From Dysidea avara (taxonomy: Eukaryota > Porifera > Demospongiae > Dictyoceratida > Dysideidae): a stretch of 64,000 nucleotides of DNA. The notes under the pieces were generated by a model, which was given only the letters and a program-made list of their open reading frames with translations, had not been told where the DNA came from and made no database searches. Each line of letters opens with the position of its first letter. Position 1 is the first letter of the stretch. The position numbers and the translations under genes are program-made. The stretch lies in contig NC_089274.1 of NCBI RefSeq assembly GCF_963678975.1, positions 2,406,001 to 2,470,000 on the forward strand. Direction: 5' to 3'. This document shows, one piece after another, positions 3,442 to 63,850 of this stretch.

Positions 3442-5644
3442 TCACACAATTTTATTGGTACAACTTACCGTAACAGTACGAAGCATTTCTACAATGTGTT
3501 GAATCATTTGAGGTCTATCAACTGATGACTTAGAAATCTCATTTGTCAAGTACAATAGTTTTTCAAGGAATGATTCATGGTCACAATCAGGGTCACACAA
3601 GCTAATTCCATAACAACAGAGAAATGGTCCATTGTGTAGTTCAGGTGGTATCTTCACCTCAATGAAATACTGCTGAACTTTCTTGTGTTCCTGTATGGAT
3701 ATGCAACTAGTAACAACATGGAACTTGACACCAGAGAACATTGCTTAGCTTGTATAAATGTTAACCATAGCTACAGGTGTAGTAACATTGTCTATGACAC
3801 AACACTAGGTTTTGCAACAATGATTCAGTGACGTAGCTATAACCTTACAGACACTTGGTTGCTAAGTCAATCAGTTGTTATTGGTTTATAATATTCATGT
3901 GGACAGGTCAAACAATATATGGTAAAGGTCAACAATAACAAGTTGCACTCACTTCAAGTACAAGCTCCATCCGATCATGTAAATAATCCAACAAGTCTTT
4001 CATCTCTTTTGCCTATAGTAGTATAATGACAAGTCAGCTGTTTCTATGTAACATGTAGTACACTAACTTCATAATCTCTTTGTATTATATCCCTCTTCAT
4101 ATCATGACAACACATTATCTTAAACATGCTGATGTAGCACATCATAGTGTAACTGAAATATTCTATGTTGAGAGTAGCTAGTATGAAGTTGACAACATCC
4201 TACAAAACATTTAAATTATGGGATGTGGAATATTCACTATTATTACCTGTCTCAATCCAGTAGGTTTACAGTCCCCACATAACATTGCAGCTGTCTTGAC
4301 AACATCTGACAAGTCCACCTGTTGGTCTTTGTGATATGCCACAAGAATACAACCAACCTGCAAATGGTAAATGTGTATTACAGAAAGCAGTATAGACGTT
4401 TTGTGCTCTGCTGGGAATCTATTAGTTGTTTAATACACTATTGAAAACTATACTGCTAATGTTTTATGACTGTCAACAGAATTAACACGAACTATTAAGC
4501 CTTTCCTTTAGCTTAGTATCACTTTAAAAATGCATAACTCATGTCTAAATTTAGTGACGGGCTAGCTAAGCCAATATCACCACCATGGTATACCGTATAA
4601 AAGCCCAGGCCTTTGTTTCCTTCTCAACATTTTTGACCCAGCCTGTAACGAATACAGTGGAACCTGTCTATCTAGAACATTTTGGGACCCAGAATTTTTG
4701 GCCACTTCTTGCATAAAGGTTTTCCTCTTTCAGAGGTAAAAAATGTATTAACCAGACCTGTTGGGACCAAAATTTGTCCTTATTATGGAGGTTTTTTCTA
4801 TTGTGTCCTTAATTCGGGGAGTTTGTTAAGAGAGGTTCCACTGTAGGACCTTTATTTGAGACTGGGTGTTTATTTTGGATTGTTCGTCAAGATTACCTGG
4901 CAGGGGTGTAGCTAGCTTTCTGGATTTCCCGGGCACAAGGTTCAACTGTCCCCATGCAAACTATTTAGCAAGAAATGCGAGCCCATCTCTGTGGACTCTT
5001 TACACATTTGCTTTCGAAAAAACTGTTGAAAAGTGCATACATGTACCTAACTAGCTACTATACACTGCTGTTTGTGTGGCTTAATTAGGCTATGATACTA
5101 CTACATGAAAAATATAGAAGCTAAATCTAACAATGATTGACTAACTTAGCCTCCAACCCCGGATTTTTAAAAACTTAAGTGTTTATATATCTATGAGATC
5201 CTCAGGGAGTAATAGCTACACATGAAAACTATTTCCATTAATTTTACAATTCTCCCAAATTCGCTACTATTGATTCAACTGGTAACTCTATACACAAATA
5301 CATTTTTTATCACAACCTCTCATACAGCTATTCGCGAGCATTCCACAATGTGTGACCTCACCAAATCACAGTAGGCCTCGTAAAGAATTCCAGTGTATAT
5401 CTCCGGGTGTCTTTGCTTTCGGTTCAAAGCAGAATCAGCGAAGATAGCATTGTATCCACGTTCTACACAACGAATTTAAAGCGTAATAAGGGGTAACCTC
5501 AAATATTACCCGACAGAACTCACCATCAATGGCATGTGAAAAGAACCTTATAACAGGATACAGCCAACCAGGAGAGTGTAAAAATTCACAAAACTCAGAA
5601 GTCGGGAGTATGGGTACATCGTGAACTGCACCACCAGTAGCCAT
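3442..5644 (-). CDS. Unrecognised multi-exon gene, outer copy A (weak BART/CFAP36-like N-terminus)
   Basis: Exons that splice in phase with GT-AG borders are 5,524-5,644, 5,362-5,462, 4,247-4,357, 4,068-4,199 and 3,953-4,012, giving 175 codons from ATG 5,644. A further conserved stretch at 3,442-3,741 (HNGPFLCCYGISLCDPDCDH) ends at a good donor, but its frame does not follow simply from the preceding exon, so the 3' end is uncertain and may be cut by the retroelement at 3,045. The N-terminus, with EFCEFLHSPGWLYPVI then IYTGILYEAYCDL, resembles the start of BART domains such as CFAP36 and ARL2BP. This is a weak resemblance and no function is claimed. The copy is open, unlike inner copies B and C. 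It starts head to head with copy B across about 320 bp. Relative to copy D it shows an excess of amino-acid replacements. Confidence 0.6.
4655..4843. mobile_element. Tc1/mariner-type MITE in the third-to-second exon intron of gene A
   Basis: The ends are inverted (CAGTGGAACCT at the left, AGGTTCCACTG at the right) and each is bordered by TA at 4,653-4,654 and 4,844-4,845, the target duplication expected of Tc1/mariner elements. There is no coding capacity. It lies inside an intron of copy A, so it is spliced out if the gene is expressed. Confidence 0.65.
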
Positions 5645-5968
5645 CTCTATCAACTGCAAACTGAGTGTGTGCTCTGGAAGGTCGGGCAATTTACCCAGTC
5701 ACGTGTAATTTGATGACGTAAAATAGTTGAGCTGGCACGTGTCCTCGTAGCTAAAGTGCTCCACAACTTTTACGTGAGGAAAAGGTCGCGCTCACACACT
5801 TAACTGCTACTCCTTTCTTGCTCTTCCACGTTCCCAGCCCTAGCTACCAACGGGAAAGACGTCCCAGTAAACAGTTGTATACTGGAAATAATACTAGTGA
5901 TGTCACGTGACTGCACAAATAAGAACTTCTTAGACCTTCCAGACCACATACTCAGTTCATCAGTAGGG
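5645..5968. promoter_or_regulatory. Shared divergent promoter between gene copies A and B
   Basis: About 320 bases separate the two ATGs of the head-to-head copies. Three CACGTG E-boxes lie at 5,700-5,705, 5,736-5,741 and 5,904-5,909, and a CRE-like TGACGTA lies near 5,714. The stretch has more CpG than its surroundings. The equivalent region of the right arm (about 63,258-63,570) keeps most of these motifs. Promoter function is inferred from position and motif conservation. No TATA box is evident. Confidence 0.5.
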
Positions 5969-7640
5969 ATGGCTACTGGTGGTGCTACTTACAATGTACC
6001 TGTACTCCTGACTCCAGAGTTTTGTGAATTTTTGCACTTTCCTTATTGTTATAAGGTTCCTTGCTCATGCCATTGATGGTGATTTGAGGTCATCCCTCAT
6101 TAACCTGTAATGATGCTTTTGTTGTCATATAGAATATGGATACAATTCTGACTTCGCTTATTGTGCCACTATTGACCAAAAGAAAATCGAGGAGAAGTTC
6201 AGAATCATTAATGAGACCTAGCTTCTGTGATTTGGTGAGATTTAGAGCTGGTAGGATTGTAGTTGCACACAGAAATTAAAGGGACCATCAAAGTTCTGTT
6301 ATGCAGTTTAATAGTAATAGAGAAAGCATATTCTCTTTTGTCATGCATATATGGGGAAGGGCTGGCTCAACTTCATCATATAGGGCAAGTGTAAGTGTCA
6401 AACTTACTTATGCAAAGGTCAACAGCGGATCATTCATCATAACTGCATGGAGTGTTGGTTCTCTTATTGGCTGAGATACTTGCACTCTGCTTTGTACCAT
6501 TAATATTAGCTAATATCTTTGATCCCCTCCCATAAATTCTGGGAATTCTTTTGTGTAGCTTTGATTTGTGTTAACCTGCAGGAAAGGTTTAATTGTTTGT
6601 TACCATGATCATCACGTGTGCTGTTGACTGGCTAGGTTAAATTATAGAGCAGTTTAGTATTTGTGTACAGTTTTTACTGGTGTTTAACAATCAACTAATA
6701 GTATTCTCAGAGTGTGTGCAGAATGCAAATTCTATACCACGTCCACCACCCACCACCAACCAATACTCATATTTACAGGTGGACTCGTCAGATGCTATCA
6801 AGACAGCTACAATGTTATATGGGGACTGTAAACCTATTTGAGTGAGACAGGTAATAAGTCACATCCCATAACTTAATGTTTTGTAGGATGTTGTCAACTT
6901 CATACAAGCTACTCTCAATGTGGAATATTTCAGTTACACTATGATGTGCTACAACAACATGTTTAAGATAATGTGTTGTTATGATATGAAGAGGGATATA
7001 ATACAAAGAGATTATGAAGTTAGTGTACTACATGTTACATAGAAACAGCTGACTTGTCATTATATTACTACTATAGGCAAAAGGGATGAAAAACTTGTTG
7101 AAGTTTTTGCATGATCAGATGGAACTTGTACTTGAAGTGAGTGCAACTTGTTATTGTTGACCTTTACCATATATTGCTTGACCTGTCCACATGAAATATT
7201 ATAAACCAATAACAACAACTGATTGACTTGGAATCAAGTATCTGTAAGGTTATAGCTACATCACTGAATCATTGTTGCAAAACCTAGTGTTGTGTTATAG
7301 TCTATAGACAATGTTTAATTTTGTAACTGGCTATGGTTAACGTTTGACTACAAGCTAAGCAATGTTTTCTGGTGACAAATTCCATGTTGGTACTAGCTGC
7401 ATATCCACGCAGGAACATGAGAAGGTTCAGAAGTGTATCAGTAAAGTGCCACTTCAACTACACAATGGACCATTTCTCTGTTGTTATGGAATTAGCTTGT
7501 GTGACCCTGATTGTGACCACGATTCATTCCTCGAAAAATTATTGTACTTGACAAAATGAGATGTTTGAGTCATCAGTTCATAGACCTCGAATGATTCAGC
7601 ACCTTGTTGAAATGCTTCAATCTGTTACGGTAAGTTGTGT
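5969..7640 (+). pseudogene. Inner gene copy B, decayed
   Basis: This is a copy of gene A in opposite orientation. Exon 1 starts at ATG 5,969 but has an 11-base deletion near 6,045 and has lost the intron-1 donor. Exon 2 (from about 6,133) contains an in-frame stop near its end. Exon 3 (about 6,779-6,849) lacks the first third present in copy A and carries a TGA (CCT ATT TGA). Exon 4 (6,887-7,018) is intact, and the block at 7,362-7,559 stops early compared with A. The exon 3 stop is shared with copy C, so B was already broken before the arms were duplicated; the exon 1 and 2 lesions are private. Confidence 0.75.
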
Positions 7641-9119
7641 GTGATATTTTCTGTGAGAAAGGTTATACTGTAATGATGTACTATTAAATGGGGAAGTTGT
7701 CTTGTTGTCTGTCCAGAAAATCAGAAACATGATTGTTATGATTTCATTATAATTAAGTAACCTAATGGACCAGTCAATGTATTGTTTGCTGTAGTCACTT
7801 ACACATGATCATGACAAGTTACAGTAACAGTGTATAGTTTAGTCAGACAGTTGTCTAGTCAGACAGTTGTCTAGCCAAAACAACTTGCTACCAGTACTAT
7901 GTAGGTACAGATCACCCTAAAACCATGCAACCTCATTTTCCCTTCATGACAGCTTGCCAGGTATTTGTTAGGTATCATCAAGCCCGAAAATGGCTACAGA
8001 GCAGTCCAAAACTTGTTTCTATGGAGTTTGTAAAAAAATTCTAAATTATTTTTAATAACTGACTAACTAACTAAGTGGCTCCTTCAGCCAAGCATAACTC
8101 AACAATGGTTAAGGCTACAAGATTGATTTTTTTTACTGTTTGACATCTCTGGCCCAAGGCATGTCTTTTGGCAAGTGCTGCAGGGGCTACATACAGTGAC
8201 CTGTGTCCTTGTGTGTCCCATTTATTTTTCTACTGCCACATAGGCACTGATTTGTGGCAACATGTGATGGCTTCAGTGCTAGCTAGCTATTGCGAGAATC
8301 ATCCATAACTCCTATGGTGACTGGATTGATTGCAGCGATGCTTCTGGTACTGTTCTTTATTTTTAATGCTGTATGACGGGTTGAAAAAGAAGTATAGTAG
8401 CCATTTCACTTCTCAGTGATTGATATTCAGGATGTGCATTCAGTCTGTAATAACTTGATTGATTGCTGAGGCAGTTCTCAAAGTGTTCCTTTTTGTAATT
8501 CACACAATGGGTGGAACAAAGCTGATAGCAAAGCAGAATGGCCACATTGATACGCAAACAATATTTGTATCCATACTAAGCCACTCACCTATTGTGAGGT
8601 AAATCAGTGCCATTTTGCACTGTCTAGCTAGTTAATTTTCTTTTTCCCCTTATCTGAAATATAAAGACATTATATTTCTTGCTTCTTTCTGTTGATTAAT
8701 ACTATGTCATATCTGGAGTTTCGGCGAGTTTCAGCAAATCCTCCGTGAAGTTGATGACTTGAAATCCTATCACAAATAATTGTTTTTGAAAAAGATTACC
8801 TGGACATGGTTAGTATTGTCGTATCAATACACTGTAAAAGTTCAAGAAAATTATATTCTTTGTAATATATGCATGAATTTATTATTAGGATATTGTTAAC
8901 CTAGTGACAGGTGTAAAAACATGGCTGACATGTATACCAGGATAGTGAAATACTTTTTCAGAGCAAAAGCAGTGGAAACAGCAATTTGAAGGATTTTATT
9001 GGTCACCACAATCTCTCTAGCACAACACAATTTCCTGTACACATGTAATCAAAGAAATTATACTTCAACCACTAATTGAAATGATGTCAATTAACAAAGA
9101 AAAAACAAATATAAATGTA
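7641..9119. repeat. Downstream region of copy B: dispersed repeats, no gene
   Basis: No coding exon could be supported. Bases 8,290-8,560 belong to a dispersed family (GTGACTGGATTGATTGCA, then a TTTGTAATGCTGT-like stretch) also seen at about 26,430-26,560 and 31,740-31,830, and mirrored at about 60,420-60,700. Around 7,840-7,875 there is a short direct duplication (agtcagacagttgtctag twice). The stretch has its inverted counterpart at 59,870-61,340. A 64-codon minus-strand frame at 8,363-8,557 is kept in the right arm, but it sits inside the repeat and is probably not a gene. Confidence 0.55.
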
Positions 9120-9410
9120 ATATGACATCACCTCACACAACTACATGGAGCAACAAGTCCAACACTCAGAATGAACTACTGGACAACTTATCCTAACTTG
9201 GTACGTGTGGTAGTGACTTCCACCAGCACCTCCAGAGGTCAAGGACCCTGTACATTTAACTGTGCAATTACCAGGTTCAAATATTTCACACTTTATGTTA
9301 ACCTGGTACATGCAACATGTGCCAGCCTCTTGATACAAGCTCCAGAAGTCACCACCCTAGCAACCCCCAGGCATCCTGTATCCCACTAAATAAATTCCAA
9401 GTGTCCTGTA

Positions 9411-11233
9411 TAGGGCTGCACCGATTCCACTTTTTACCGATACTTCAAATACCAAGTACTCAGCTGGGAAGTATCTGCAAGTACAAGTACCGATACAAGT
9501 ACCTTAAAGTAGCTACTTCATAGTGCACACGTTTATTATATAGTGCATTTCATGGTATTTTTGTACATGTTTTCAGTATGGTTCAAATGAAGTAGCCAAT
9601 CAAGATTCACAAAGAATTAGGCCCCTATTTGGTGATTATTAGTTTCTCATCCAGTCTTTCTAATTATTTTGATGCGGGTGGGAGGGAATTACCATTAGGC
9701 CATTATAGTATTAATACAATGATGTACAGACCTTGTCCAAATTGTCTTTCTTTCCTCCCACAAATTAACATTGGTTTTTAGTTGCAATCGTGCTCTATCA
9801 ACTTCATCATAGCTAGCAGGATTTCAGTAGACTTGAAAAACAGTCGAAAATAGAATCCACTGCAGTAATTTGCCAAGGCAACAACAGTACTCCTGGTGCA
9901 CTGTAGCATTAATTAAAAAACGCCATCGTGTTTCAATACAAATTATGACGGTTTGGTACCACATGTTCTTCTGAGCATGATCAGAGTAAATAATGGCTTA
10001 CCATGCGGTAGCCTAAGAAGGATGCAGGCAGTGGATGAGAAACTAATAGTTACCAAATAGAGGCCTTAAGGAAGTCACTGAAATGCAAACCAGTGAATAT
10101 TCCAGTACTCTTCTGGAGAAGTGTAGACAATATCATAATGATGCTTACAAAAACACAAATATTCTAATACTGAAACACCCCGTCACTTCTACCAGATTGC
10201 TCTATTAGCATTATTGACTGTTCTATTAGAGTATATCGATTTTTTCTCAGTAAAGTGTTTTCACATGTAGGTTTCAGTATAGATCAGTAATTTTGCTGGT
10301 AGTTATTAGTGTTACACTTGATGCTTTAGGCATCCACTGTGCTAGTAAAATAAGCAAGTACAAACGAACGTTATTTTATTCCCACACGTGATAAGAATCG
10401 GATCTGCAACAATGTCCCAGTGCTTTGTCACAGGGTCGCTTTACATACCATCACAATAAGGTCTTGCATTGTTTGGCCACAGAACTGTCCAAGTGTTTCA
10501 CAGGATCATATGTGATATCAATATATGCTGATTTACCTGGAATGCGGGCAAGTGACTGTCCCCAGTCAACAATTCCTCCTTTCTTACTTATTACACCATA
10601 TTGGCCTGATCTAGTTATTTTCAACCAGAGTAATAACTCAGTGGCCGTGCTGGAGCTAACTTGTCCATTGGACTCGGTTCAAAACCTTGAGTCTGACTCT
10701 GCAAGGGAATGTAAACAAGGGAAAAACGAATACCAAGAAATACAGTCTGAATTTGATCGACTGGGAGTTCGTTGTTTTTACAGCACAATTGAACTAAGTG
10801 TATTAGGTCACTACCTATCACCTTCTTTGTCCTCCTTTCCAAACTGTACTAATTTTGTTGATGAGACCACCATGATATCTAAGTCAAGCTGCAGGAGAGT
10901 TTTTGACTTGGCAGCTTAAATAGCTATCTCTGCTTCCAGAAGAATATTTTTGGCTAAGGATTGCTCTGAATGGACTCTTGAATGTTGACACTTGATTAAT
11001 TATACATATATAATATTATATTTTTGTAATTTTTTCCCTTGCCACACCCACTCTTGGGGCATAGCTCTGTGAGTGGCAGTGTGTGTCTGAGGACTCACCT
11101 CACATTATTGTTGTTGTAACACTCAATTTTCATCAATAAAATGATGGCCTCTCTCATGGCCGATTCTGATACTTCATGAAAACAGCAGTATCGGCCCGAT
11201 ACTGATACCGATACTAGAATCGGTGCAGCCCTA
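9411..11233. mobile_element. hAT-like non-autonomous transposon, left-arm copy
   Basis: The element has terminal inverted repeats of about 17 bases (TAGGGCTGCACCGATTC), with a TATCGG-rich subterminal stretch at the right end. It shares the TAGGGCTG end with the hAT at 20,489-22,468. It carries a retroelement-derived reading frame at 10,425-10,919 and no transposase that I can see. A clean 8-bp target duplication is not evident; the flanks share only an imperfect 'tcctgta'. The right-arm copy (57,516-59,569) is the same element plus a later MITE. Confidence 0.65.
10425..10919 (+). CDS. Retroelement-associated ORF carried inside the hAT-like element
   Basis: A 164-codon open frame contains SQGRFTYHHNKVLHCLA, then YWPDLVIFNQSN and VLELTCPLDS, and later ECKQGKNEYQEI and LSVLGHYL. 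This order is familiar from the C-terminal part of reverse-transcriptase-bearing elements abundant in sponges and cnidarians. The PD...ELT spacing resembles a PD-(D/E)XK nuclease core, but the usual Lys is replaced by Thr, so activity is doubtful. It has no start context of its own and ends close to TAA at 10,918. In the right arm the same frame is interrupted by a MITE. It is probably a captured fragment rather than a host gene. Confidence 0.5.
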   Translation: MSQGRFTYHHNKVLHCLATELSKCFTGSYVISIYADLPGMRASDCPQSTIPPFLLITPYWPDLVIFNQSNNSVAVLELTCPLDSVQNLESDSARECKQGKNEYQEIQSEFDRLGVRCFYSTIELSVLGHYLSPSLSSFPNCTNFVDETTMISKSSCRRVFDLAA

Positions 11234-12275
11234 GGACTCCTGTACATTTGGTTTAGGGTTATACTGAATGACGTGATGCAATTGGCAATGTTGAAAGACT
11301 TCTACAAATCATGCATGCTTAATGCAAACCCTGGATTAGGCCCGCTGCAATAACCTGGTCCTCCTCTACACCAGTCTCCTGACATGATTGGAATACCCTG
11401 CACATTAATAGTGTAACAACCAGGATCAAATCACTTTTCTTCTCTTCACCTGACACAAGTGCCAGTTGTTTCACTGAACCAGCCTCTTCACTAATTGAAT
11501 ATCTCAAGTAAATTGAAACACATTAACAGTGTAACAATCACCTTCACAAGTTTTTCCAACCTGTTACAAGTGCCAGCAAATCCTACACAGCTTCTTCAGT
11601 AATCTCCCAACATCCAGCATGTTTCAGCCTCTTTATACCATCACCTTGAGCAATTTCCCAACATCCAATCTATTGATCACCAAAAGCAACACTCTAGTAA
11701 TCTATGGACATCCATCATTCTAATAAATTCAAGTAGCTCTGTATTACATGTACAATATTTATAGCAACCACAATCGAATGTAGCTAATGTGATATGAGGT
11801 CATGAGATCTATTACATAATAAGAGTGGAAAATCCCTTGGATATACGGTGTAACTTTCAAAATATTTTATTTGGAATGTTGATGTATATTGTGATGCAAT
11901 CTCTATAGTCATGAAAACAGAACAACATTATGTCATGCAGTAGATTGATTCAAATGTTCTAGAAAGTCGTGCACTAAACATCGTATGTTTACATGTCACT
12001 ATTTATTACATCTCCCTTGTTACAAAAAGGAGTGTGGTAAGTGGCTGTGCTACAATTGCAAAACTTAATTACAGTGCTCAGATCAACTAAAAATGACAAA
12101 TTGTGTGCAGTGTATGCATGAGAGTTATGGAAATTGGTCTGCATACCTACTGGGGTCTTAATAGTTCTTTGTGAGCATCTTAGTGCTGGGGCTATTTCAG
12201 CAGGTACCCTAGGTTCATAAACTTCAGGGGATACAATGACTGGTTCACTTGTATATCACTGTTTGGATTATGAAT

Positions 12276-12591
12276 ACCAAAACAACCTAGCTGTGAAAAA
12301 AGGGTATGGCCTCAGGGTGAAAGAGATGTGAAATCAAAGGTGGTGGTCAAGAAATGGCTGTGATGGTAGGCTAATGGCAAAAATTTTAATAACAACAATT
12401 CAGGTGAATTTGTGTTACCTTCTCCAAGTTTCACTAGGATTTGGTACCAAATTCACTGAATTGTCATTATTAAAATATTTGCTATCAACTTACCATCACA
12501 GCCATTTCTTGGCCGCCACCTTTGATTTCACATTTTTTATCCTGAGGCTGCATCCTTTTTTCACAGCTTGGCTGTTTTGGTATAGATATCA
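12276..12591. mobile_element. Foldback element F1, left-arm copy
   Basis: Two arms of about 150 bases are inverted copies of each other (ggctgtgatggtaggctaat on the left, its complement on the right) around a short loop near 12,420-12,440. The outer ends read acctagctgtgaaaaaaggg and ccttttttcacagcttggct. It sits within the gypsy 3' region: the flanking sequence continues at about 1,733 of the undisturbed copy. Other copies are at 41,951-42,266, 46,030-46,275 and 56,168-56,484. Confidence 0.7.
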
Positions 12592-12966
12592 CTTCTTTTT
12601 GTAATTTTGTATACTCCAAAGCCAGCCTGTGGCCAGCTTTGGAGTTTGTTAAAGGAGGAAAAGATCAAGTGCTAAATTCTGTGGATATTTTATATGATTT
12701 TTTTTACTGTATGAAAATTATTGTGCATGTCCTCTCTGCTATACAGGTTGGCTTACAACTTGGATGGCTTGTAGCAGAAATCTCTACAAGGTAACTTGAC
12801 TGATTTTAGCTGAACTCTCTACAGGTGACTTGATCTCGGTAACTTGTTTGTAGCTGAGGGGTGAACCTTTCACAGGGTGCTTTTGTTTGTAGTTGAATTC
12901 TCTACATGTTGACTCGTTTGTAGCAGAACTCTCTACAGGGTGACCTACAGGCAACTTGTGTAGCAT

Positions 12967-13250
12967 ATGGATATTATGGGACAGACACTTGCATATAATA
13001 TTGTAGCAGTGTATGCGTATATGTATATATTGTATGGTGTGCTTTTGTTGGAATATTATTGTTCACATGGAAAAAATTGTTGGAGCACTCAGTTGATCCT
13101 CAGCTACAGAGCAACACCTTTACCCTGGTGTGGGCTTAGCCCAGCTGAGCTGCTTATGTGGAAGAGGATAAGAACAGATATTCCTCAAGCATAGGACAAC
13201 TTAATCCCCAAGTGGGAGTATATTCAGAATTTCAGACAATTAGATGATTG
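12967..13250 (+). mobile_element. LTR-retrotransposon integrase fragment (fossil)
   Basis: A short plus-strand reading frame contains LSYRATPLPWCGLSPAELLM, the conserved end of Ty3/gypsy integrase cores. It is opposite in orientation to the gypsy copy it lies within, so it comes from another insertion. It is a broken scrap. The right-arm copy is at about 55,480-55,765 on the minus strand. Confidence 0.6.
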
Positions 13251-13309
13251 GGTGATTTTTTTCACAGGGTGAACTCTCTATTGGGTGACTTGTTTGGGGC
13301 TGAACTCTT

Positions 13310-14515
13310 TATTTATTTATCAATGCTGTGAAAACTTCAAAAATGAAGATCATACACAGATAGCTAACTATAAGTCCATAGCAATAGTTTTGTTGTGATA
13401 ATTTGAAAGATTCTGTTGTGGTGCATTCGACAATGTGGCATGGCAAAGAGCTCCCTGATCTTGGTGATGACATTAAGGAGTACTTGTAGGTGTCTGTATT
13501 ACAGAACAATTCAGATAAACTGAACATGTGGCTTGATCTGGTTTGCAGTTGATATTTGATAGTGTGATGTCTGGGAATGAAACTCTGTAATATATTCTCA
13601 GGGCCGGAGCCCAGAGATTCTGAGTGGTCAGGCCATGGACTGCAATGGAGGTCATAGTCATGCACACTACATTTTATTGATTTGAAATTTAAATCAGATT
13701 ATCTACTGTAATCTTGTTTGTGTGTGATAGCTACAGCATGCATTAACATGCTAAGCTAAGGAAGTCTGGGGGCATGCTTCCTGGGAAAAATTTTGAAAAT
13801 ACATGTTCTGGAATGGCATCTGGAAGCTATTTTACATACATGGTCTCTTTCTGCTTTTAACACCAAGAATATATCTAGGTAGTTTTGAGCTACTGTATAC
13901 CAATTAATTCAATTTAATATATAGCTAGTAGCTAATTTTACTTTCATGATACAAAGTGAGTTTAGTTCTTGAGATACTGAAGCAATTTTGATTGTAATTG
14001 TTAATACATAACATGCATTATCAATTAGCCTATTGTGCAATTCTATGCAGATGGTTCACTGGAAAGTAATTTTAAGACAATTAAAATGGATATAATGGCT
14101 TAGATCAACCAGACTGAACCAGTGTAATAAGAGTCAGTATTGATGAATGCTCTATTAGACTATCACGATGACTGTTCTATTAGAGTATAATGTGATGACT
14201 GCTCTATTAGAGTATCTCGATCTTTTTGCAAATTCAAGTGACTGAAAAGTGGTCCGGCCAGGCTCCGGTCCCTGTATTCTGATAGTAATAGGTGTTCTGT
14301 TTTAGGATGTCAGAGCATTATCAAACTAAACTGGTCTCTACGTGATTCAAGTGATTCCCATTGTAACTCATTTAGCATCTGCGTAACACTGGCATCACAT
14401 GTACTCTCCTTTTACATATGTAGCTTTACATTTCTGTACTTTCTCCAACTTATTCTTATCATTTATTAAGTGTGGACTCCAGACTGTGGTGGCATACTCA
14501 AGTTTAGGTCATACC
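13310..14515 (-). mobile_element. LINE 3' segment (reverse-transcriptase tail), left arm
   Basis: On the minus strand, 14,515-14,340 reads TTVWSPHLINDKNKLEKVQK and then TQMLNELQWESLE, and 13,600-13,310 reads SGSSLPCHIVECTTTESFK. These are typical of the C-terminal region of Jockey/CR1-type LINE reverse transcriptases. The two parts are separated by a 676-bp insertion (13,599-14,274) absent from the right arm. The reading frame has stops and shifts, so this is a relic. The LINE itself lies within the minisatellite. Confidence 0.65.
13599..14274. mobile_element. Left-arm-only insertion with inverted ends
   Basis: The ends are inverted repeats (CAGGGCCGGAGCC at the left, complement of CAGGGACCGGAGCC at the right). 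The six bases tattct flank both sides (13,593-13,598 and 14,275-14,280). The right arm at about 55,135-55,145 has the uninterrupted sequence with a single copy of this hexamer, so the insertion postdates the arm duplication. It is a non-autonomous DNA element and carries two or three 'ctctattagagtat' motifs. Confidence 0.7.
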
Positions 14516-16545: not shown

Positions 16546-16606
16546 TCAACACTTATGTCGATATTTGCATTTGATACTAAATTCCTTGAATATTTTCTAT
16601 TCCTGT

Positions 16607-52880: not shown

Positions 52881-52886
52881 GATAAT

Positions 52887-53650
52887 TTCCTAGATAACAC
52901 ACGATAGTAAGTCATGCAGCCAAGTACAGCCAGCGCGGGCGAGTGACAGACAAGTGTGTATTTATAGGAACCAAGAAAACAAAGTTTCACACATACGTAG
53001 CTTTGATAGTGCTTGACCAGAAATGAACCATTTTTGCTATGGAAACTCCCTCGAGGTGGGGCACTTCCTGTTTCAAATTTGAGCCAAATCTTCCAAGCCA
53101 TCACTGAGATATGCGCTTTCAAAGTTTGTCTAGTTTCTTTATGTTTTCTTCTTTTTTTTGAAATACTTACTGTAACTCGTGTATGCTTTAGTCCATTTTC
53201 TTCAAATTTAGAGGGCAGTAAGTGCATAATGCAGCATGTTTGCAGTCCAACTTTCGTACACATCGGATAAAGAACAAGGGAGTTATACGCAGTTTTCCAA
53301 AAACTGCAATAGCCATTTTTTGTCATGGCCACAGAGTAAACCACTTGAAGGAATGACTTGAAAATCGGTCTGTACATGGAGCAACCATCGTAGTGCAAAT
53401 CTTTTATGATTTGAAAGAAATTGCACTTAACAACCATGGAGATAACAAAAATGCCAACCATGTGTAACAAACATATGATCAAGTTTTGTTAAGGAAAATA
53501 AGGATTACTTCCCATGCCTACCAGGCAAACTAGTTTACGGAATCAGCTGAAAATGCATAGATAGGTAGATTATTATAGAGCGATCTTTCAGTGGTCTACA
53601 AGGAATCAGATTAAAAACCACTGAGTTACACTATGAAAGTCAACTAGGTG
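52887..53650 (-). repeat. Unclassified dispersed repeat R1, right arm, with a long open frame
   Basis: This is the mirror of 15,775-16,545. On the minus strand it is open for 220 codons (53,482-52,820), about twice as long as in the left arm. No domain, signal or membrane pattern is convincing, and codon content looks like chance openness in a repeat. Confidence 0.45.
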
Positions 53651-53759
53651 TAATAAAGCATTTACTTCTACAAACATTAAATTAATTGAATCAGTGTAAC
53701 GCAGAGCAGCCCGCTGGATCTGTAGCACCTGGAATCCACAATTACATCAACGATCTAAG

Positions 53760-54070
53760 TCATCAAATATGATTGTATCAGTGAACTGCAATGGCCGTCC
53801 CTACAGTCTAGACAGCATTTCTTGTCATTATCAATTTTGTATGATATTTGGAAGAAGTGTACTAGATTTAGTTGAGTTCAATAAATTGTGTACAAAGTCG
53901 TACTCCCAAACATTAAAACTGTTTTCCTCTACCATCAATGTTTTCGTTACTCTTTTTTTGTATCCGTGGCATTCTTGTGGAACACTATTCCAGTGGACAT
54001 TTTAGCTCAAAGCCATGTTAAATATTTCAGATCAAAACTGAAACAGTTTCTATTCTAGAGTATTGTGATT
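53760..54070 (+). mobile_element. LINE 3' terminus, right arm
   Basis: Mirror of 15,360-15,700, again with MIVSVNCNGRPYSLDSISC. The same relic state shows that it was already decayed before the arms were duplicated. Confidence 0.6.
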
Positions 54071-54221
54071 GTTTATAGTTTTGTAATTGTAATTGTTGTT
54101 TTGTAACTGTATGGATTGTATGTAAGGGTATCACCTTGTACAGGCATCTGTCTTTTAAGTGCACGATCGAGATACTCTAATAGTGTAGTTACCCTAATAG
54201 AACATTCAGCTACGTAATGCA

Positions 54222-54503
54222 GGGGCGGCTCCAGGGGGGTTTCTGAGGTTTCTGGAAACCGGTCACATTTAGATCAAGATACTCTAATAGAGCAGTCAGT
54301 CACTCTAATATAAGTAGTGTAGCAAACTATGAAGTTATGAATAAAGATTTTTATGTACTTTAGCAGTGATAAAAATATTGTTTAGTGGAGAATAGCCATT
54401 CTTAGGAGGTGTCAACCCTTTTTTCTTAGGTCTTCACCTAAAATCTAGCTATGCTTTTGATCAGAAACCAGTCGCCAAAAATCCTAGAGCCGCCTATGGT
54501 AAT
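54222..54503. mobile_element. Short MITE with GGCGGCTCC-type ends, right arm
   Basis: It starts aggggcggctccaggggg and ends aatcctagagccgcctatgg. Mirror of 14,917-15,210. Confidence 0.5.
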
Positions 54504-54514
54504 GAGTCACTCTA

Positions 54515-55985
54515 TTAGAGCGTTTAGTCCCAATCAAGTCACCATATAGAGAGTTCAGCTAACAGCAAGGAACCCAATAGAGAGTTCAACTACAATCAAG
54601 TCACCCTATAGAGATTTTGGCTACAAAAAATCACAATGTAGAGAGTTTTACTACACACAAGTCATCCTGAAGAGAGTTCAACTACAAACAATTCACCTGT
54701 GGAGTTCAGTTTTAAAAAAATCACCCTGGAGAGAGTTTAGTTTTAAAAATCACCAAGTTCAGCTATAAAAAATTCACCCTGTAGTGATTTCAACTACAAA
54801 CAAGTAGAAGGCTCAGCCACAAACAAGTCACCTTGTACAGAGTTCAGCTACAAGCAGTTTACCCTGCAGCCACAAACAAGTCACCCTGTAGAGAGATTGG
54901 TATGACCTAAACTTGAGTATGCCACCACAGTCTGGAGTCCACACTTAATAAATGATAAGAATAAGTTGGAGAAAGTACAGAAATGTACTGCTACATATGT
55001 AAAAGGAGAGTACATGTGATGCCAGTGTTACGCAGATGCTAAATGAGTTACAATGGGAATCACTTGAATCACGTAGGGACCAGTTTAGTTTGATAATGCT
55101 CTGACATCCTAAAACAGAACACCTATTACTATCAGAATATATTACAGAGTTTCATTCCCAGACATCACACTATCAAATATCAACTGCAAACCAGATCAAG
55201 CCACATGTTCAGTTTATCTGAATTTTTCTGTAATACAGACACCTACAGGTACTCCTTAATTTCATCACCAAGATCAGGGAGCTTTTTGCCATGCCACATT
55301 GTCGAATGCACCACAACAGAATCTTTCAAATTATCACAACAAAACTATTGCTATGGACTTATAGTTAGCTATCTGTGTATGATCTTCATTTTTGAAGTTT
55401 TCACAGTATTGATAAATAAATAAAGAGTTCAGCCCCAAACAAGTCACCCAATAGAGAGTTCACCCTGTCAAACAAATCACCCAATCATCTAATTGTCTGA
55501 AATTCTGAATATACTCCCACTTGGGGGTTAAGTTGTCCTATACTTGAGGAATATCTGTTCTTATCCTCTTCCACATAAGCAGCTCAGCTGGGCTAAGCCC
55601 ACACCAGGGTAAAGGTGTTGCTCTGTAGCTGAGGATCGACTGAGTGCTCCAACAATTTTTTTCATGTGAACAATAATATTCCAACAAAAGCACACCATAC
55701 AATATATACATATACGCATACACTGCTACAATATTATATGCAAGTGTCTGTCCCATAATATCCATATGCTACACAAGTTGCCTGTAGGTCACCCTGTAGA
55801 GAGTTCTGCTACAAACAAGTCAACATGTAGAGAATTCAAAAACACCCTGTGAAAGGTTCAACCACAAACAAGTCACCCTTCAGCTACAAACAAGTCACCA
55901 AGATCAAGTCACCTGTAGAGAGTTCAGCTAAAATCAGAGAGAGCTCAAGTTACCTTGTAGAGATGTAGAGATTTCGGCTACAAGC
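54515..55985. repeat. 31-bp minisatellite, right arm, with LINE and integrase pieces
   Basis: Minisatellite units lie at 54,515-54,900, 55,436-55,475 and 55,790-55,985. Between them are the LINE segment (54,905-55,430, plus; TTVWSPHLINDKNKLEKVQK) and the LTR-element integrase scrap (about 55,480-55,765, minus; broken). The LINE segment is uninterrupted here, which gives the empty site for the left-arm insertion at 13,599-14,274. Confidence 0.7.
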
Positions 55986-56167
55986 CAGCCAAGTTGTAAA
56001 CCAACCTGTATAGCAGAGAGGACATGCACAATAATTTTCATACAGTAAAAAAATCATATAAAATATCCACAGAATTTAGCACTTGATCTTTTCCTCCTTT
56101 AACAAACTCCAAAGCTGGCCACAGGCTGGCTTTGGAGTATACAAAATTACAAAAAAGAAGTGATATC

Positions 56168-56484
56168 TATACCAAAATAGCCAAGCTGTGAAAAAAGGAT
56201 GCAGCCTCAGGATAAAAAATGTGAAATCAAAGGTGGCGGCCAAGAAATGGCTGTGATGGTAAGTTGATGGCAAATATTTTAATAATGACAATTCAGGTGA
56301 ATTTGGTACCAAATCCTAGTGAAACTTGGGGAGAAGGCAACACAAATTCACCTGAATTGTTGTTATTAAAATTTTTGCCATTAGCCTACCATCACAGCCA
56401 TTTCTTGGCTGCCACTTTTGATTTCACATCTCTTTCACCCTGAGGCCATACCCTTTTTTTACAGCTAGGTTGTTTTGGTATTCA
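56168..56484. mobile_element. Foldback element F1, right-arm copy
   Basis: Mirror of 12,276-12,591, with arms of about 150 bases (gccaagctgtgaaaaaagga and cccttttttt-acagctaggt). Bases immediately right (aagtgaaccagtcattgtat) match about 1,750, so the element sits inside the gypsy 3' region. Confidence 0.7.
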
Positions 56485-57837
56485 TAATGATATACAAGTG
56501 AACCAGTCATTGTATCCCCTGAAATTTATGAACCTAGGCTACCTGCTGAAATAGCCCCAGCACCAAGATGCTCATAAAGAACTATTAAGACCCCAGTAGG
56601 TATGCAGACCAATTTCCATAACTCTCATGCATACACTACACACAATTTGTCATTTTTAGTTGATCTGAGCACTGTAATTAAGTTTTGCAATTGTAGCACA
56701 GCCCCTTACCACACTCCTTTCTGTAACAAGGGAGATGTAATAAATAGTGACATGTAATCATACGATGTTTAGTGCACGACTTTCTAGAACATTTGAATCA
56801 ATCTACTGCATGACATAATGTTGTTCTGTTTTCATGACTATAGAGATTGCATCACAATACATCAACATTCCAAATAAAATATTTTGAAAGTTACACCGTA
56901 TATCCAAGGGATTTTCCACTCATAATATGTAATAGATCTCATGACCTCATATCACATTAGCTACATTCGATTGTGGTTACTATAAATATTGTACATGTAA
57001 TACAGAGCTACTTGAATTTATTAGAATGATGGATGTCCATAGATTACTAGAGTGTTGCCTTTGGTGATCAATAGACTGGATGTTTGGAAATTGCTCAAGG
57101 TGATGGTATAAAGAGGCTGACACATGCTGGATGTTGGGAGATTACTGAAGAAGCTGTGTAGGATTTGCTGGCACTTGTAACAGGTTGGAAAAACTTGTGA
57201 AGGTGATTGTTACACTGTTAATGTGTTTTAATTTACTTGAGATATTTGAATAATTAGTGAAGAGGCTGGTTCAGTGAAACAACTGGCACTTGTGTCAGGT
57301 GAAGAGAAGAAAAGTGATTTGATCCTGGTTGTTACACTATTAATGTGCAGGGTATTCCAATCATGTCAGGAGACTGGTGTAGAGGAGGACCAGGTTATTG
57401 CAGCGGGCCTAATCCAGGGTTTGCATTAAGCATGCATGATTTGTAGAAGTCTTTCAACATTGCCAATTGCATCACGTCATTCAGTATAACCCTGAACCAA
57501 ATGTACAGGAGTCCTAGGGCTGCACCGATTCTAGTATCGGTATCAGTATCGGGCCGATACTGCTGTTTTCATGAAGTATCAGAATCGGCCATGAGAGAGG
57601 CCATCATTTTATTGATGAAAATTGAGTATTACAACAACAATAATGTGAGGTGAGTCCTCAGAAACACACTGCCACTCACAGAGCTATGCCCCAAGAGTGG
57701 GTGTGGCAAGGGAAAAATTACAAAAATATATTATATATGTATAATTAATCAAGTGTCAACATTCAAGAGTCCATTCAGAGCAATCTTTAGCCAAAAATAT
57801 TCTTCTGGAAGCAGAGATAGCTATTTAAGCTGCCAAG

Positions 57838-58553
57838 TCAAAAACTCTCCTGCAGTTTACTTAGATATCATGGTGGTCTCATCAACAAAGATAGTACAGT
57901 TTTGAAAGGAAGACAAAGAAGGTGATAGGTAGTGGCCTAATACACTTAGTTCAATTGTGCTGTAAAAACAACGAACTCCCAGTCAATCAAATTCAGACTG
58001 TATTTCTTGGTATTCGTTTTTCCCTTGTTTACATTCCCTTGCAGACTCAAGGTTTTGAACCGAGTCCAATGGACAAGTTAGCTCCAGCATAGCCACTGAG
58101 TTATTACTCTTGTTGAAAATAACTAGATCAGGCCAATATGGTGTAATAAGTAAGAAAGGAGGAATTGTTGACTGGGGACAGTCACTTACCCGCATTCCAG
58201 GTAAATCAGCATATGTGACCGGATTTGCGAAAAGGGGTCTTCCACACACATCCAATTCCGTAAACGTTGGAGACCATAACTCAGTGTTCAAGTAACATAT
58301 TAACCTGAAATTTTCACCATGTATTCAGCTATAGTGGTGCTCACCACTGTCCAAACTTCAAGGCAATAGCTCTTTCCAATCTGAAGTTATCAATTGTCAA
58401 AGTTGGCAAATTGGATGTGTGTGGAAGACCCCTTTTTGCAAATCCGGTCACATATATTGATATCACATATGATCCTGTGAAACACTTGGACAGTTCTGTG
58501 GCCAAACAATGCAAGACCTTATTGTGATGGTATGTAAAGCGACCCTGTGACAA
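57838..58553 (-). pseudogene. Captured retroelement ORF, right arm, split by a MITE
   Basis: This is the minus-strand counterpart of 10,425-10,919, with SQGRFTYHHNKVLHCLA at 58,553 and YWPDLVIFNKSN downstream. MITE M1 is inserted at 58,215-58,451 within the codons after YVISIY, a stop follows EIQSEFD, and a DSARE-to-ARE shortening is seen. It is not functional here. Confidence 0.6.
58215..58451. mobile_element. MITE M1, right-arm-only insertion
   Basis: Inverted ends of about 43 bases (GTGACCGGATTTGC and complement). atat flanks both sides (58,211-58,214 and 58,452-58,455). The left arm near 10,527 has the empty site cagcatatattgat (read on the minus strand) with a single atat, which establishes a 4-bp A/T target duplication and a date after the arm duplication. 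Confidence 0.9.
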
Positions 58554-59869
58554 AGCACTGGGACATTGTTGCAGATCCGATTCTTATCATGTGCGGGAAT
58601 AAAATAACATTCGTTTGTACTTGCTTATTTTACTAGCACAGTGGATACCTAAAAGCATCAAGTGTAACACTAATAACTACCAGCAAAATTACTGATCTAT
58701 GCTGAAACCTACATGTGAAAACACTTTACTGAGAAAAAATCGATATACTCTAATAGAACAGTCAATAATGCTAATAGAGCAATCTGGTAGAAGTGACGGG
58801 GTGTTTCAGTATTAGAATATTTGTGTTTTTGTAAGCACCATTATGATATTGTCTACACTTCTCCAGAAGAATACTGGAATATTCACTGGTTTGCATTTCA
58901 ATGACTTCCTTAAGGCTTCTATTTGGTAACTATTAGTTTCTCATCCACTGCCCGCATCCTTCTTAGGCTACCGCATGGTAAGCCATTATTTACTCTGATC
59001 ATGCTCAGAAGAACATGTGATACCAAACCGTCATAATTTGTATTGAAACACGATGGCGTTTTTTAATTAACACTAAAGTGCACCAGGAGTACTGTTGTTT
59101 CCTTGGCAAATTACTGCAGTGGATTCTATTTTCGACTGTTTTTCAAGTCTACTGAAATCCTGCTAGCTATAATGAAGTTGATAGAGCACGATTGCAACTA
59201 AAAACCAATGTTAATTTGTGGGAGGAAAGAAAGACAATTTGGACAAGGTCTGTACATCAGTGTATTAATACTATAATGGCCTAATGGTAATTCCCTCCCG
59301 CTCGCATCAAAATAATTAGAAAGACTGGATGAGAAACTAATAATCACCAAATAGGGGCCTAATTCTTTGTGAATCTTGATTGGCTACTTCATTTGAACCA
59401 TACTGAAAATGTGTACAAGAATACCATGAAATGCACTATATAATAAATGTGTGCACTATGAAGTAGCTACTTTAAGGCACTTGCTATCGGTACTTGTACT
59501 TGCAGATACTTCCCAGCTGAGTACTTGGTATTTGAAGTATCGGTAAAAAGTGTAATTGGTGCAGCCCTATACAGGACACTCGGAATTTATTTAGTGGGAT
59601 ACAGGATGTCGGGGGGGTTGCTAGGGTGGTGACTTCTGGAGCTTGTATCAAGAGGCTGGCACATGTTGCATGTACCAGGTTAACATAAAGTGTGAAATAT
59701 TTGAACCTGGTAATTACACAGTTAAATGTACAGGGTCCTTGACCTCTGGAGGTGCTGGTGGAAGTCACTACCACATGTACCAAGTTAGGATAAGTTGTCC
59801 AGTAGTTCATTCTGAGTGTTGGACTTGTTGCTCCATGTAGTTGTGTGAGGTGATGTCATATTACATTTA

Positions 59870-61339
59870 TATTTGTTTTTTCTTTGTTAATTGACATCGT
59901 TTCAATTGGTGGTTGAAGTATAATTTGTTTGATTACATGTGTACAGGAAATTGTGTTGTGCTAGAGAGATTGTGGTGACCAGTAAAATCCCTCAAACTGC
60001 TGTTTCCACTGCTTTTGCTCTGAAAAACGTATTTCACTATCCTGGTATACATGTCAGCCATGTTTTTACACCTGTCACTAGGTTGACAATATCCTAATAA
60101 ATAAATTCATGCATATATTACAAAGAATCTAATTTTCTTGAACTTTTACAGTGTATTGATATGACAATACTAACCATGTCCAGGTAATCTTTTTCAAAAA
60201 CAATTATTTGTGATAGGATTTCAAGTCATCAACTTCACGGAGGTTTGCTGAAGCTCGCCGAAACTCCAGATATGACATAGTATTAATCAACAGAAAGAAG
60301 CAAGAAATATAATGTCTTTATATTTCAGATAAGGGGAAAAAGAAAATTAACTAGCTAGACAGTGCAAAATGGCACTGATTTACCTCACAATAGGTGAGTG
60401 GCTTAGTATGGATACAAATATTGTTTGCGTATCAATGTGGCCATTCTGCTTTGCTATCAGCTTTGTTCCACCCATTGTGTGAATTACAAAAAGGAACACT
60501 TTGAGAACTGCCTCAGCAATCAATCAAGTTATTACAGACTGAATGCACATCCTGAATATCAATCACTGAGAAGTGAAATGGCTACTATACTTCTTTTTCA
60601 ACCCGTCATACAGCATTAAAAATAAAGAACAGTACCAGAAGCATCGCTGCAATCAATCCAGTCACCATAGGAGTTATGGATGATTCTCGCAATAGCTAGC
60701 TAGCACTGAAGCCATCACATGTTGCCACAAATCAGTGCCTATGTGGCAGTAGAAAAATAAATGGGACACACAAGGACACAGGTCACTGTATGTAGCCCCT
60801 GCAGCACTTGCCAAAAGACATGCCTTGGGCCAGAGATGTCAAACAGTAAAAAAAATCAATCTTGTAGCCTTAACCATTGTTGAGTTATGCTTGGCTGAAG
60901 GAGCCACTTAGTTAGTTAGTCAGTTATTAAAAATAATTTAGAATTTTTTTACAAACTCCATAGAAACAAGTTTTGGACTGCTCTGTAGCCATTTTCGGGC
61001 TTGATGATACCTAACAAATACCTGGCAAGCTGTCATGAAGGGAAAATGAGGTTGCATGGTTTTAGGGTGATCTGTACCTACATAGTACTGGTAGCAAGTT
61101 GTTTTGGCTAGACAACTGTCTGGCTAGACAACTGTCTGACTAAACTATACACTGTTACTGTAACTTGTCATGATCATGTGTAAGTGACTACAGCAAACAA
61201 TACATTGACTGGTCCATTAGGTTACTTAATTATAATGAAATCATAACAATCATGTTTCTGATTTTCTGGACAGACAACAAGACAACTTCCCCATTTAATA
61301 GTACATCATTACAGTATAACCTTTCTCACAGAAAATATC
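59870..61339. repeat. Region downstream of copy C, no gene
   Basis: Mirror of 7,641-9,119. The dispersed repeat R2 fragment is at about 60,420-60,700. No supported exon. Confidence 0.5.
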
Positions 61340-62905
61340 ACACACAACTTACCGTAACAGATTGAAGCATTTCAACAAGGTGCTGAATCATTCGAGGTCT
61401 ATGAACTGATGACTGAGTCGGGTTCCTGCATGGATATGCACCTAGTAACAACATGGAACTTGTCACCAGAGAACATTGCTTAGCTTGTAGTCAAACATTA
61501 ACCATGGCCAGTTACAAAATTAAACATTGTCTATAGACTATAACACAACACTAGGTTTTGCAACAATGATTCAGTGATGTAGCTATAACCTTACAGATAC
61601 TTGGCTACCAAGTCAATCAGTTGTTGTCATTGTTTATAATATTTCATGTGGACAGGTCAAGCAATATATGGTAAAGGTCAACAATAACAAGTTGCACTCA
61701 CTTCAAGTATGAGCTCCATCTGATCATGCAAATACTTCAACAAGTTTTTCATCTCTTTTGCCTATAGTAGTATAATGACAAGTCAGCTGTTTCTATGTAA
61801 CATGTAGTACACTAACTTCATAATCTCTTTGTATTATATCCCTCTTCATATCATAACAACACATTATCTTAAACATGTTGTTGTAGCACATCATAGTGTA
61901 ACTGAAATATTCCACATTGAGAGTAGCTCGTATGAAGTTGACAACATCCTACAAAACATTAAGTTATGGGATGTGACATATTCACTATTATTACCTGTCT
62001 CACTCAAATAGGTTTACAGTCCCCATATAACATTGTAGCTGTCTTGATAGCATCTGACGAGTCCACCTGTAAATATGAGTATTGGTGGGTGGTGGACGTG
62101 GTATAGAATTTGCATTCTGCACACACTCTGAGAATACTAATAGTTGATTGTTAAACACCAGTGAAAACTGTATACACAAACACTAAACTGCTCTATAATT
62201 TAACCTAGCCAGTCAACAGTACATGTGATGATCATGGTAACAAACAATTAAACCTTTCCTGCAGGTTAACACAAATCAAAAGCTACACAAAAGAATTCCC
62301 AGAATTTATGGGAGGGGACCAAAGATATTAATATTAATGATACAAAGCAGAGTGCAAGTATCTCAGCCAATAAGAGAACCAACACTCCATGCAGTTATGA
62401 TGAATGATCCGCTGTTGACCTTTAGTTTGACACCTACACTTGCCCTATATGATGAAGTTGAGCCAGCTCTTCCCCATATATGCATGACAAAAGAGAATAT
62501 GCTTTCTCTATTACTATTAAACTGCATAACAGAACTTTGATGGTCCCTTTAATTTCTGTGTGCAACTACAATCCTACCAGCTCTAAATCTCACCAAATCA
62601 CAGTAGATCTCATAAATGATTTTGAACTTCTCCTTCATTTCTTTTGGTCAATAGTCACACAATAAGCGAAGTCAGAATTGTATCCAATATTCTATATGAC
62701 AACAAAAGCATCATTACAGGTTAATGAGGGGTGACCTCAAATATGCTCAAACTCACCATCAATGGCATGAGCAAAGAACCTTATAACAGGATACAGCCAA
62801 CAAGGAGAGTGCAAAAATTCATGGAGTCGGGAGTACGGGTACATCGTAAGTAGCACCATAGATGGTGTGTGCTCTAATATCTATGGTAGCACCACCAGTA
62901 GCCAT
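61340..62905 (-). pseudogene. Inner gene copy C, decayed
   Basis: Starts at ATG 62,905. Exon 1 has a partial tandem duplication (about 62,846-62,885) and has lost about nine bases around the FCEF codons, but keeps the donor near 62,750. Exon 2 (about 62,688 down) begins with an extra T that shifts frame. Exon 3 (about 61,998-62,070) shares the TGA and the shortened 5' side with copy B. Exon 4 (about 61,820-61,950) is intact. The MFSG-type exon near 61,400-61,480 is cut short by a deletion. The lesions shared with B date to before the arm duplication; the rest are private. Confidence 0.7.
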
Positions 62906-62949
62906 CTCTACTGATGAACTGAGTATGTGGTCTGTAAGGTCTAGAAGTT

Positions 62950-63257
62950 GTTATAATAACCGGAACCGGTATGAGGAATGGAACGGAACGGAACGACTAA
63001 ACCAGGTGAAGAAGAAACCAAAGCTGAACCCAACCCTAACCTGTTAAGCATTATGATGTATTTCACTGTCTGTATGAAGATAAGTTTTTGGTGAGTTCGG
63101 GGCGAGCTAGGGTTGGCCCGGCTTCGCCGGGACGCTCGCTCCAACCCTAGCTCGCCTCGAACTCACTAAAAACTTACCCTAGTGCAGCACTGTGTGCTTG
63201 ATAGTGGAGTTAGCAGAGTGACCGTTCCGTTCCATTCCTGATTCCGGTTATTATAAC
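62950..63257. mobile_element. Right-arm-only element with gttataataaccgg ends and a foldback core
   Basis: Outer inverted ends gttataataaccggaa and ttccggttattataac are followed inward by ggaatggaacggaacgg and its near complement. The core (63,004-63,180) is a foldback of family F3 (gcgagctagggttgg and ccaaccctagctcgc). The left arm at about 5,915-5,930 lacks it, so it arrived after the arm duplication. It separates copy C from the shared promoter. Confidence 0.75.
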
Positions 63258-63570
63258 TCAGATTACTTAATAACTTGCCAGTTTTTATTTGTGCAGTCAC
63301 GTGCAATATAATGACATCACTATTATCTGCAAGCCACGTGACTAATCCAGTATGCAACTGTTTACTGGGACGTCTTTCCCGTTGGTAGCTACGTGGAAGA
63401 GCAAGAAAGGAGTAGCAGTTAAGTGTGTGAGCGCGACCTTTTCGTCACGTAAAAGTTGTGGAGCACTTTAGCTACGAGGACACGTGCCGGCTCAACTATT
63501 CTACGTCATCAAATTACACGTGACTGGGTAAATTGCCACACTCAGTTTACAGTTGATATTTTTGATAGAG
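63258..63570. promoter_or_regulatory. Shared promoter between gene copies C and D
   Basis: Counterpart of 5,645-5,968. CACGTG boxes lie at 63,298-63,303 and 63,335-63,340 and two more between about 63,480 and 63,530, along with a ctacgtcatc CRE-like site. The copy C side is now displaced by the 308-bp insertion. Confidence 0.5.
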
Positions 63571-63850
63571 ATGGCTACTGGTGGTGCAGTTCACGGTGTA
63601 CCCATACTCCCGACTCCAGGGTTTTGTGAATTTTTACACTCTCCTTGTTGGCTGTATCCTGTTATAAGCTTCTTTTCTCGTGCCATTGATGGTGAGTTCT
63701 GTCGGGTGAGTTTGAGGTTACCCCTTACTTACGCTTTAAATTCGTTGTGTAGAATATGGATACAGTGCTGTCTTCGGTGATCCTGTTTTGGACCGAAAGC
63801 AAATAAAACAGGAAATATACAAAATTCTTTACGAGACCTACTGTGATTTG
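63571..63850 (+). CDS. Unrecognised multi-exon gene, outer copy D (5' part only)
   Basis: Exons 63,571-63,691 and 63,753-63,850 are open, have consensus borders (GATG|GTGAGT, TGTAG|AA, TTTG|GTGAGG) and encode the first 73 codons. The gene continues beyond the window. The layout is identical to copy A, but exon 2 is one codon shorter. Notable replacements against A are SE to PG (residues 16-17), G to C (26), R to S (33), H to R (37) and most of residues 42-65. Two silent codon differences were found. It starts head to head with pseudogene C. Function unknown; see copy A for the weak BART-like resemblance. Confidence 0.6.

Follow-up and report, generated by a model that had tools for sequence, protein, structure and literature searches.

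Results

Locus organization

We analyzed a 64,000-nucleotide stretch of Dysidea avara DNA (contig NC_089274.1, positions 2,406,001 to 2,470,000), referred to below as the window, and focused on genes A and D, two copies of one gene whose exons differ more than the promoter and introns around them. An earlier note on this DNA had read that difference as a signature of diversifying selection. The window is eukaryotic in look, with an AT-rich composition and genes carrying short GT/AG introns. It contains an inverted repeat with arms of ∼12 kb each and a spacer of ∼35 kb (Table 1). Blocks of the two arms are 87–98% identical when gaps are counted, and their substitution divergence is 6.0% for the A-D block, 2.8% for the B-C block, and 1.4, 1.9, and 1.8% for the blocks that follow. 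Outside the A-D block, substitutions between the arms number 190 in 10,227 aligned columns (1.86%). Two head-to-head gene pairs of the same family, A/B and C/D, occupy the outer arm ends, giving four copies.

At the sequence level, the outer copies look like functional genes, as exons 1–6 of A are open with GT/AG borders and exons 1 and 2 of D are open. Gene D exits the window beyond exon 2, and the A-D comparison consequently spans 2 of A's 6 or 7 exons. Both inner copies are broken. In gene C, exon 1 has a 36-base insertion and an 8-base deletion, and exon 6 is largely gone; the TGA codon in exon 3 is identical in B and C.

The product had been described as unrecognized, and our searches agree: no known family matched the protein in Pfam (best E = 0.16) or PDB (best E = 0.59). 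No relatives were found in viral_contigs or genome_contigs, which hold viral, bacterial, and archaeal sequence and have little bearing on animals. Judging from its predicted sequence, our guess is a soluble, helical, intracellular protein. In exon 2, A and D have in common an initial E-GY---F and a terminal YCDL motif, and many positions between the two motifs differ.

TABLE 1. Features of the inverted repeat and its four gene copies (window coordinates)
Feature	Position	Strand	Remarks
Inverted repeat, left arm	5223..17116	+	Blocks aligned to 63997-52364; divergence given per block in the text
Inverted repeat, right arm	52364..63997	-	Extends to window end
Gene A exon 1	5524..5644	-	ATG at 5644, open frame, GT donor; 8/121 substitutions vs D
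Gene A intron 1	5463..5523	-	GT...AG; 2/60 substitutions and 2 indels vs D
Gene A exon 2	5362..5462	-	Divergence hot spot; 15/98 substitutions and one codon indel vs D
Gene A exon 3	4247..4318	-	Open, AG/GT, phase 0
Gene A exon 4	4068..4199	-	Open, AG/GT, phase 0
Gene A exon 5	3953..4012	-	Open, AG/GT, phase 0
Gene A exon 6	3469..3690	-	Open, AG/GT, phase 0
Gene A probable last exon	3323..3376	-	AG acceptor, 17 codons and TAG stop, read by eye
Gene D exon 1	63571..63691	+	Open; counterpart of A exon 1
Gene D intron 1	63692..63752	+	Paired with A intron 1
Gene D exon 2	63753..63850	+	Open; 98 bases vs 101 in A
Gene B	5969..7629	+	Broken paralogue, head-to-head with A; exon 1 shorter by a net 11 bases, a TGA in exon 3, and exon 6 frameshifted
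Gene B exons	5969-6078, 6133-6234, 6779-6850, 6887-7018, 7077-7136, 7413-7629	+	
Gene C	61353..62905	-	Broken paralogue, inverted-repeat partner of B
Gene C exons	62905-62757, 62691-62594, 62066-61995, 61948-61817, 61761-61702, exon 6 remnant 61417-61353	-	
Presumed divergent promoter of A and B	5645..5968	.	3 CACGTG boxes
Presumed promoter region of C and D	62906..63570	.	4 CACGTG boxes
Inter-arm identical run	7860..8728	.	869 bases, longest identical run; maximum 501 in 5000 random placements of differences

Divergence of A and D in exons and surrounding DNA

Codon alignment of A and D gave 24 changes in 219 coding bases, with 18 codons replaced, 2 changed silently, and one in-frame codon indel, exactly the counts of the earlier note. 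Nucleotide alignment, which places the codon gap differently, gives 23 changes. The noncoding estimates were also borne out. Where about 4 promoter substitutions in some 130 bases had been claimed, we measured 5/216 (core 3/124), and intron 1 has the two substitutions and two indels attributed to it. The first 139 bases of intron 2 differ at 8/138 positions. Pooled, the exons differ at 23/219 positions (10.5%) compared with 15/414 (3.6%) for noncoding DNA (Fisher's exact test, p = 0.0012), and most of the exon excess comes from exon 2 (15/98).

We scanned the arm in 98-column segments (n = 10,381, overlapping), which contain 2.0 differences on average. The maximum of 15 lies on exon 2, in 17 segments starting at 5,360–5,376. 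Separate lower peaks follow, with 9 differences over most of exon 1 and the first part of intron 1 (5,501–5,599), 8 in noncoding intron 2 (5,223–5,321), and 7 in exon 2 of B-C (6,119–6,217). When a two-exon mask was slid over the other 10,227 arm columns, it collected 4.0 differences on average and 13 at most (at 5,922, on the B-C exons), compared with 23 for the A-D exons.

The A-D exon excess persisted when CpG sites were left out (19/203 versus 12/376, p = 0.003), also for exon 2 alone (12/88, p = 0.0004), which rules out CpG decay as its cause.

Replacement and silent change

Divergence at replacement sites in the A-D exons (21/171) is ∼3.4-fold that of local noncoding DNA (15/414, p = 0.0002) and 6.6-fold that of the remaining arm (190/10,227, p = 3e-11). 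Silent sites (3/48) were not significantly raised against either local noncoding DNA (p = 0.42) or the arm (p = 0.06). Raised replacement change with silent change not significantly raised is the direction predicted by diversifying selection. Across all methods, the ratio of replacement to silent rates (dN/dS) for exons 1 and 2 ranged from 1.7 to 3.1. Exon 1 alone gave 0.93 by the Nei-Gojobori method (NG86) and 0.85 by maximum likelihood (ML); exon 2 alone, picked post hoc, gave an ML value of 7.6 (p = 0.02).

Search for gene conversion between and within the arms

The longest identical run between the arms, 869 bases, points to recent inter-arm homogenization by gene conversion. This makes the caveat that the introns may have been homogenized a live one, and the earlier note had named such homogenization, with exons diverging neutrally, as grounds for abandoning selection. 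The outcome here is mixed, with inter-arm conversion seen at 7,860–8,728.

For conversion between neighbors, A-B or C-D, we saw no clear tracts in the alignments. Sites grouping A and B against C and D numbered two in the four-way multiple alignment and none in the pairwise projection, which omits columns gapped in one or more copies (20 in exon 1, 16 in intron 1, and 10 in exon 2). In that projection, the ratio of copy-specific to between-clade changes was 28:14 in exons and 2:8 in intron 1 (p = 0.012), or p = 0.052 when restricted to A and D. A value of p = 1.7e-6 for the same contrast was rejected as overstated, the insertion in exon 1 of C having been misplaced in the four-way alignment.

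Promoters and other features of the window

CACGTG, the G-box hexamer, occurs at 17 sites in the window against 5.0 expected, and 7 of the 17 lie within the two promoter regions, a placement that, taken with the AT-rich composition, is plausible for a sponge. Between C and D, a 306-base element with terminal inverted repeats (62951–63256) has no left-arm counterpart and is probably a small transposon-like insertion that postdates the duplication.

On the reverse strand at 20613–22343, a hAT-type transposase is spread over three overlapping reading frames, with a BED zinc finger, a Hermes-like DNA-binding domain, and a C-terminal dimerization domain; a DUF659 match was below threshold. A 31-base unit forms a degenerate tandem array at 42469–44242, and sequence resembling it also occurs within the arms, at about 14517–14908 and 54505–54897; the repeat had no match in the viral contig or plasmid collections. 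Long open stretches matched a multicopper oxidase (46458–47231, Cu-oxidase_3, E = 3.4e-35) and, partially, a 14-3-3 protein (34845–35219, E = 5.5e-18). An Rfam scan at the gathering threshold and a tRNA scan gave no result.

Discussion

Our data suggest diversifying selection as the most likely single reading of the A-D divergence, unproven as it is with two exons, 24 changes, and two silent codons. That selection on replacement changes, concentrated in exon 2, drove the A and D proteins apart is, in our judgment, a little short of an even chance. The reading is based on the kind of change, with 18 of the 20 changed codons being replacements and the sole indel keeping the frame, and on the excess of replacement change over both noncoding DNA and the arm without a significant silent excess. 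It also draws on the position of exon 2 as the arm maximum, on the ML dN/dS of exon 2 alone, on the motifs retained at both ends of that exon, on the A-D excess persisting without CpG sites while that of B-C becomes nonsignificant, and on A (six exons) and D (exons 1 and 2) being open, whereas B and C are broken.

One inverted segmental duplication copied a head-to-head pair, leaving A and D as the outer members. Under diversifying selection, replacements favored after the duplication would have separated A and D, mainly in the 34-residue segment that exon 2 encodes, and the promoter and introns may have drifted or at times been homogenized between the arms. B and C have lost function and are decaying.

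Results from A and D themselves and from comparisons with the broken copies weigh against this reading. Exon 1 alone (8/121) does not differ significantly from local noncoding DNA (15/414, p = 0.20). Circular shifts of the exon labels along the 633 A-D columns did as well in 45/633 cases (p = 0.07). The A-D noncoding positions (15/414) themselves exceed the remaining arm (190/10,227) in divergence (p = 0.017), indicating that local rates differ. The dN/dS values for exons 1 and 2 did not reach significance: NG86 gave 2.07 or 1.72, depending on the placement of the codon gap (Fisher p = 0.30 and 0.61), and a pairwise ML codon model gave 1.9–2.8 (likelihood ratio test, p = 0.07–0.27 over eight settings). 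Exon 2, with NG86 values of 4.18 or 2.63 (Fisher p = 0.18 and 0.51), was picked out only once the data had been seen. Under a neutral binomial, the probability of 21 replacements among 24 changes is 0.157 to 0.039 for a transition bias of 1 to 8, and that of 20 among 24 is 0.31 to 0.10. The selection proposed in the earlier note has partial support, from the excess of replacement over noncoding change; it leans on exon 2, and the dN/dS over exons 1 and 2 is not significant.

These tests bear on a different explanation, in which A, D, or both are decaying under relaxed constraint and, with chance and uneven mutation, exon 2 is the extreme of a patchy profile. A dN/dS indistinguishable from 1 over exons 1 and 2 and the shift test both fit such a history, as do the third arm peak, which is noncoding (intron 2), and the peak that the broken B-C pair also shows over its exon 2. 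We nevertheless regard it as unlikely, given that exon 2 has 15 differences in 98 columns compared with an arm mean of 2, that A is intact over six exons, and that leaving out CpG sites does not abolish the exon excess.

If selection on the protein were the sole cause, the broken B-C pair should lack an exon excess, and an excess in B-C consequently tests the selection reading. In exons 1 and 2, B and C differ at 12/199 positions compared with 10/578 in introns 1 and 2 (p = 0.004), and leaving out CpG sites removes this excess only partly (7/189 versus 9/572, p = 0.085). Over exons 1–5, the counts are 18/463 versus 23/997 (p = 0.09), or 12/449 versus 20/987 without CpG sites (p = 0.44); silent (5/83) and replacement sites (15/361) are each raised over introns (20/1,035; p = 0.03). 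CpG decay accounts for much, perhaps not all, of the B-C excess and for little of that in A-D. For exons 3–6, A and B differ at 48/480 positions versus 32/434 (p = 0.20), with a dN/dS of 0.65 (NG86) to 1.2, B being a broken copy. On dN/dS, which the earlier note named as support if well above 1, the post hoc ML value of exon 2 agrees with the claim, A-D exons 1 and 2 lie above 1 without reaching significance by Fisher or likelihood ratio test, and A-B exons 3–6 lie near 1. Circular shifts were not significant for B-C (exons 1–5, 152/1460; exons 1 and 2, 97/1460), A-B exons 3–6 (173/914), or A-C exons 3–5 (142/620).

Silent sites between A and B exceeded introns 3–5 (p = 0.02), with p = 0.09 against introns 3–6. 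Pooled over A-D, B-C, and A-B, pairs that share copies and are hence nonindependent, silent sites exceeded noncoding DNA with an odds ratio of 2.2 (p = 0.006), or 2.5 (p = 0.04) when A-B was left out. Such an excess is not explained by protein selection alone and keeps exon-limited gene conversion viable, in which exons 1 and 2 would have received foreign variants in blocks from unseen family members, alike in their exons and diverged in their introns. The tendency of silent sites to be raised in all three comparisons, the B-C excess in exons 1 and 2, and the presence of four family copies in the window agree with it. The 869-base identity places conversion at this locus, and in the copepod pair GOT1Sd/GOT1Sr, conversion was largely restricted to exons and an intron diverged, according to the portion of that study on which we draw (PMC3728101). 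Six D-specific changes in exon 2 (5,450–5,401), interrupted by a single A-specific one, form a weak cluster. We still find this account doubtful, as no donor is visible in the window, sites grouping A and B against C and D are two or none depending on the alignment, and exon 1 has the changes of A and of D intermingled; furthermore, conversion itself does not predict more replacement than silent excess.

Conversion could also have acted the other way around. The duplication might be older than its 2% divergence, with the arms homogenized and selection removing conversion across the exons, which would then keep an older, partly adaptive divergence. Conversion in cattle CEACAM32 affected the leader exon and introns and not the exons of the Ig-like domains, and its authors infer, in the part of the report used here, that selection hinders conversion in mature-protein exons (PMC7042247). 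By that precedent, intron homogenization by itself would not remove selection. The inter-arm conversion at 7,860–8,728 and silent exon sites somewhat above noncoding DNA fit this scenario as well. It is improbable in our view, since ∼10 kb of arm would have to be homogenized to ∼2% and these exons spared, and a recent duplication is simpler.

Returning to diversifying selection, it is possible, on tentative grounds, that the four copies represent an undescribed, lineage-restricted animal family, possibly of sponges, in which strong diversifying selection acts on one exon of 34 residues with the frame and several core residues kept, as would be expected of a recognition or host-conflict protein lacking any known domain. 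The self-recognition, immune, or reproductive role suggested earlier stays an analogy here, with no Pfam or PDB relative found for the protein. If confirmed, the reading would add an unrecognized protein that evolves rapidly in a non-model animal, with a defined 34-residue candidate segment for recognition or conflict. The locus also provides a natural control, with four copies, two intact as far as visible and two broken, and arms that serve as a neutral yardstick. What we report is a single locus at which the signal of selection is suggestive and its statistical support thin.

The type of pattern is already well known; the gene family is unrecognized. Snake venom gene families, in the section of the literature cited here (PMC2711939), are duplicated genes with accelerated coding change in particular exons or segments. 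Our locus resembles them in having duplicates with fast coding change focused on certain exons and differs in offering one pair, two exons, a nonsignificant dN/dS, and an unrecognized product; the likeness we draw is one of pattern. With ruminant CEACAM32, as far as the cited part of that work extends (PMC7042247), it shares noncoding parts that convert and coding exons of one duplicate that stay distinct. CEACAM32 is an immunoglobulin-superfamily gene compared across species, whereas we describe one locus and a protein without a recognized domain. The Tigriopus GOT1 paralogues (PMC3728101, in part) show similar islands of divergence amid conversion, one pair converting largely in exons. They encode enzymes, with Ka/Ks well below one for GOT1p1/GOT1p2 and in some cases above one for the two GOT1S genes, and inter-paralogue conversion events were detected there, whereas no donor is visible at our locus. 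For the layout, a parallel comes from the sponge Amphimedon queenslandica and its head-to-head genes, in the sections of the report that treat them (PMC4773876): the genome is AT-rich (64.2%), the G-box is four times commoner in bidirectional than in unidirectional promoters, and our locus shares with it compact divergent pairs, an AT-rich setting, and CACGTG in presumed bidirectional promoters.

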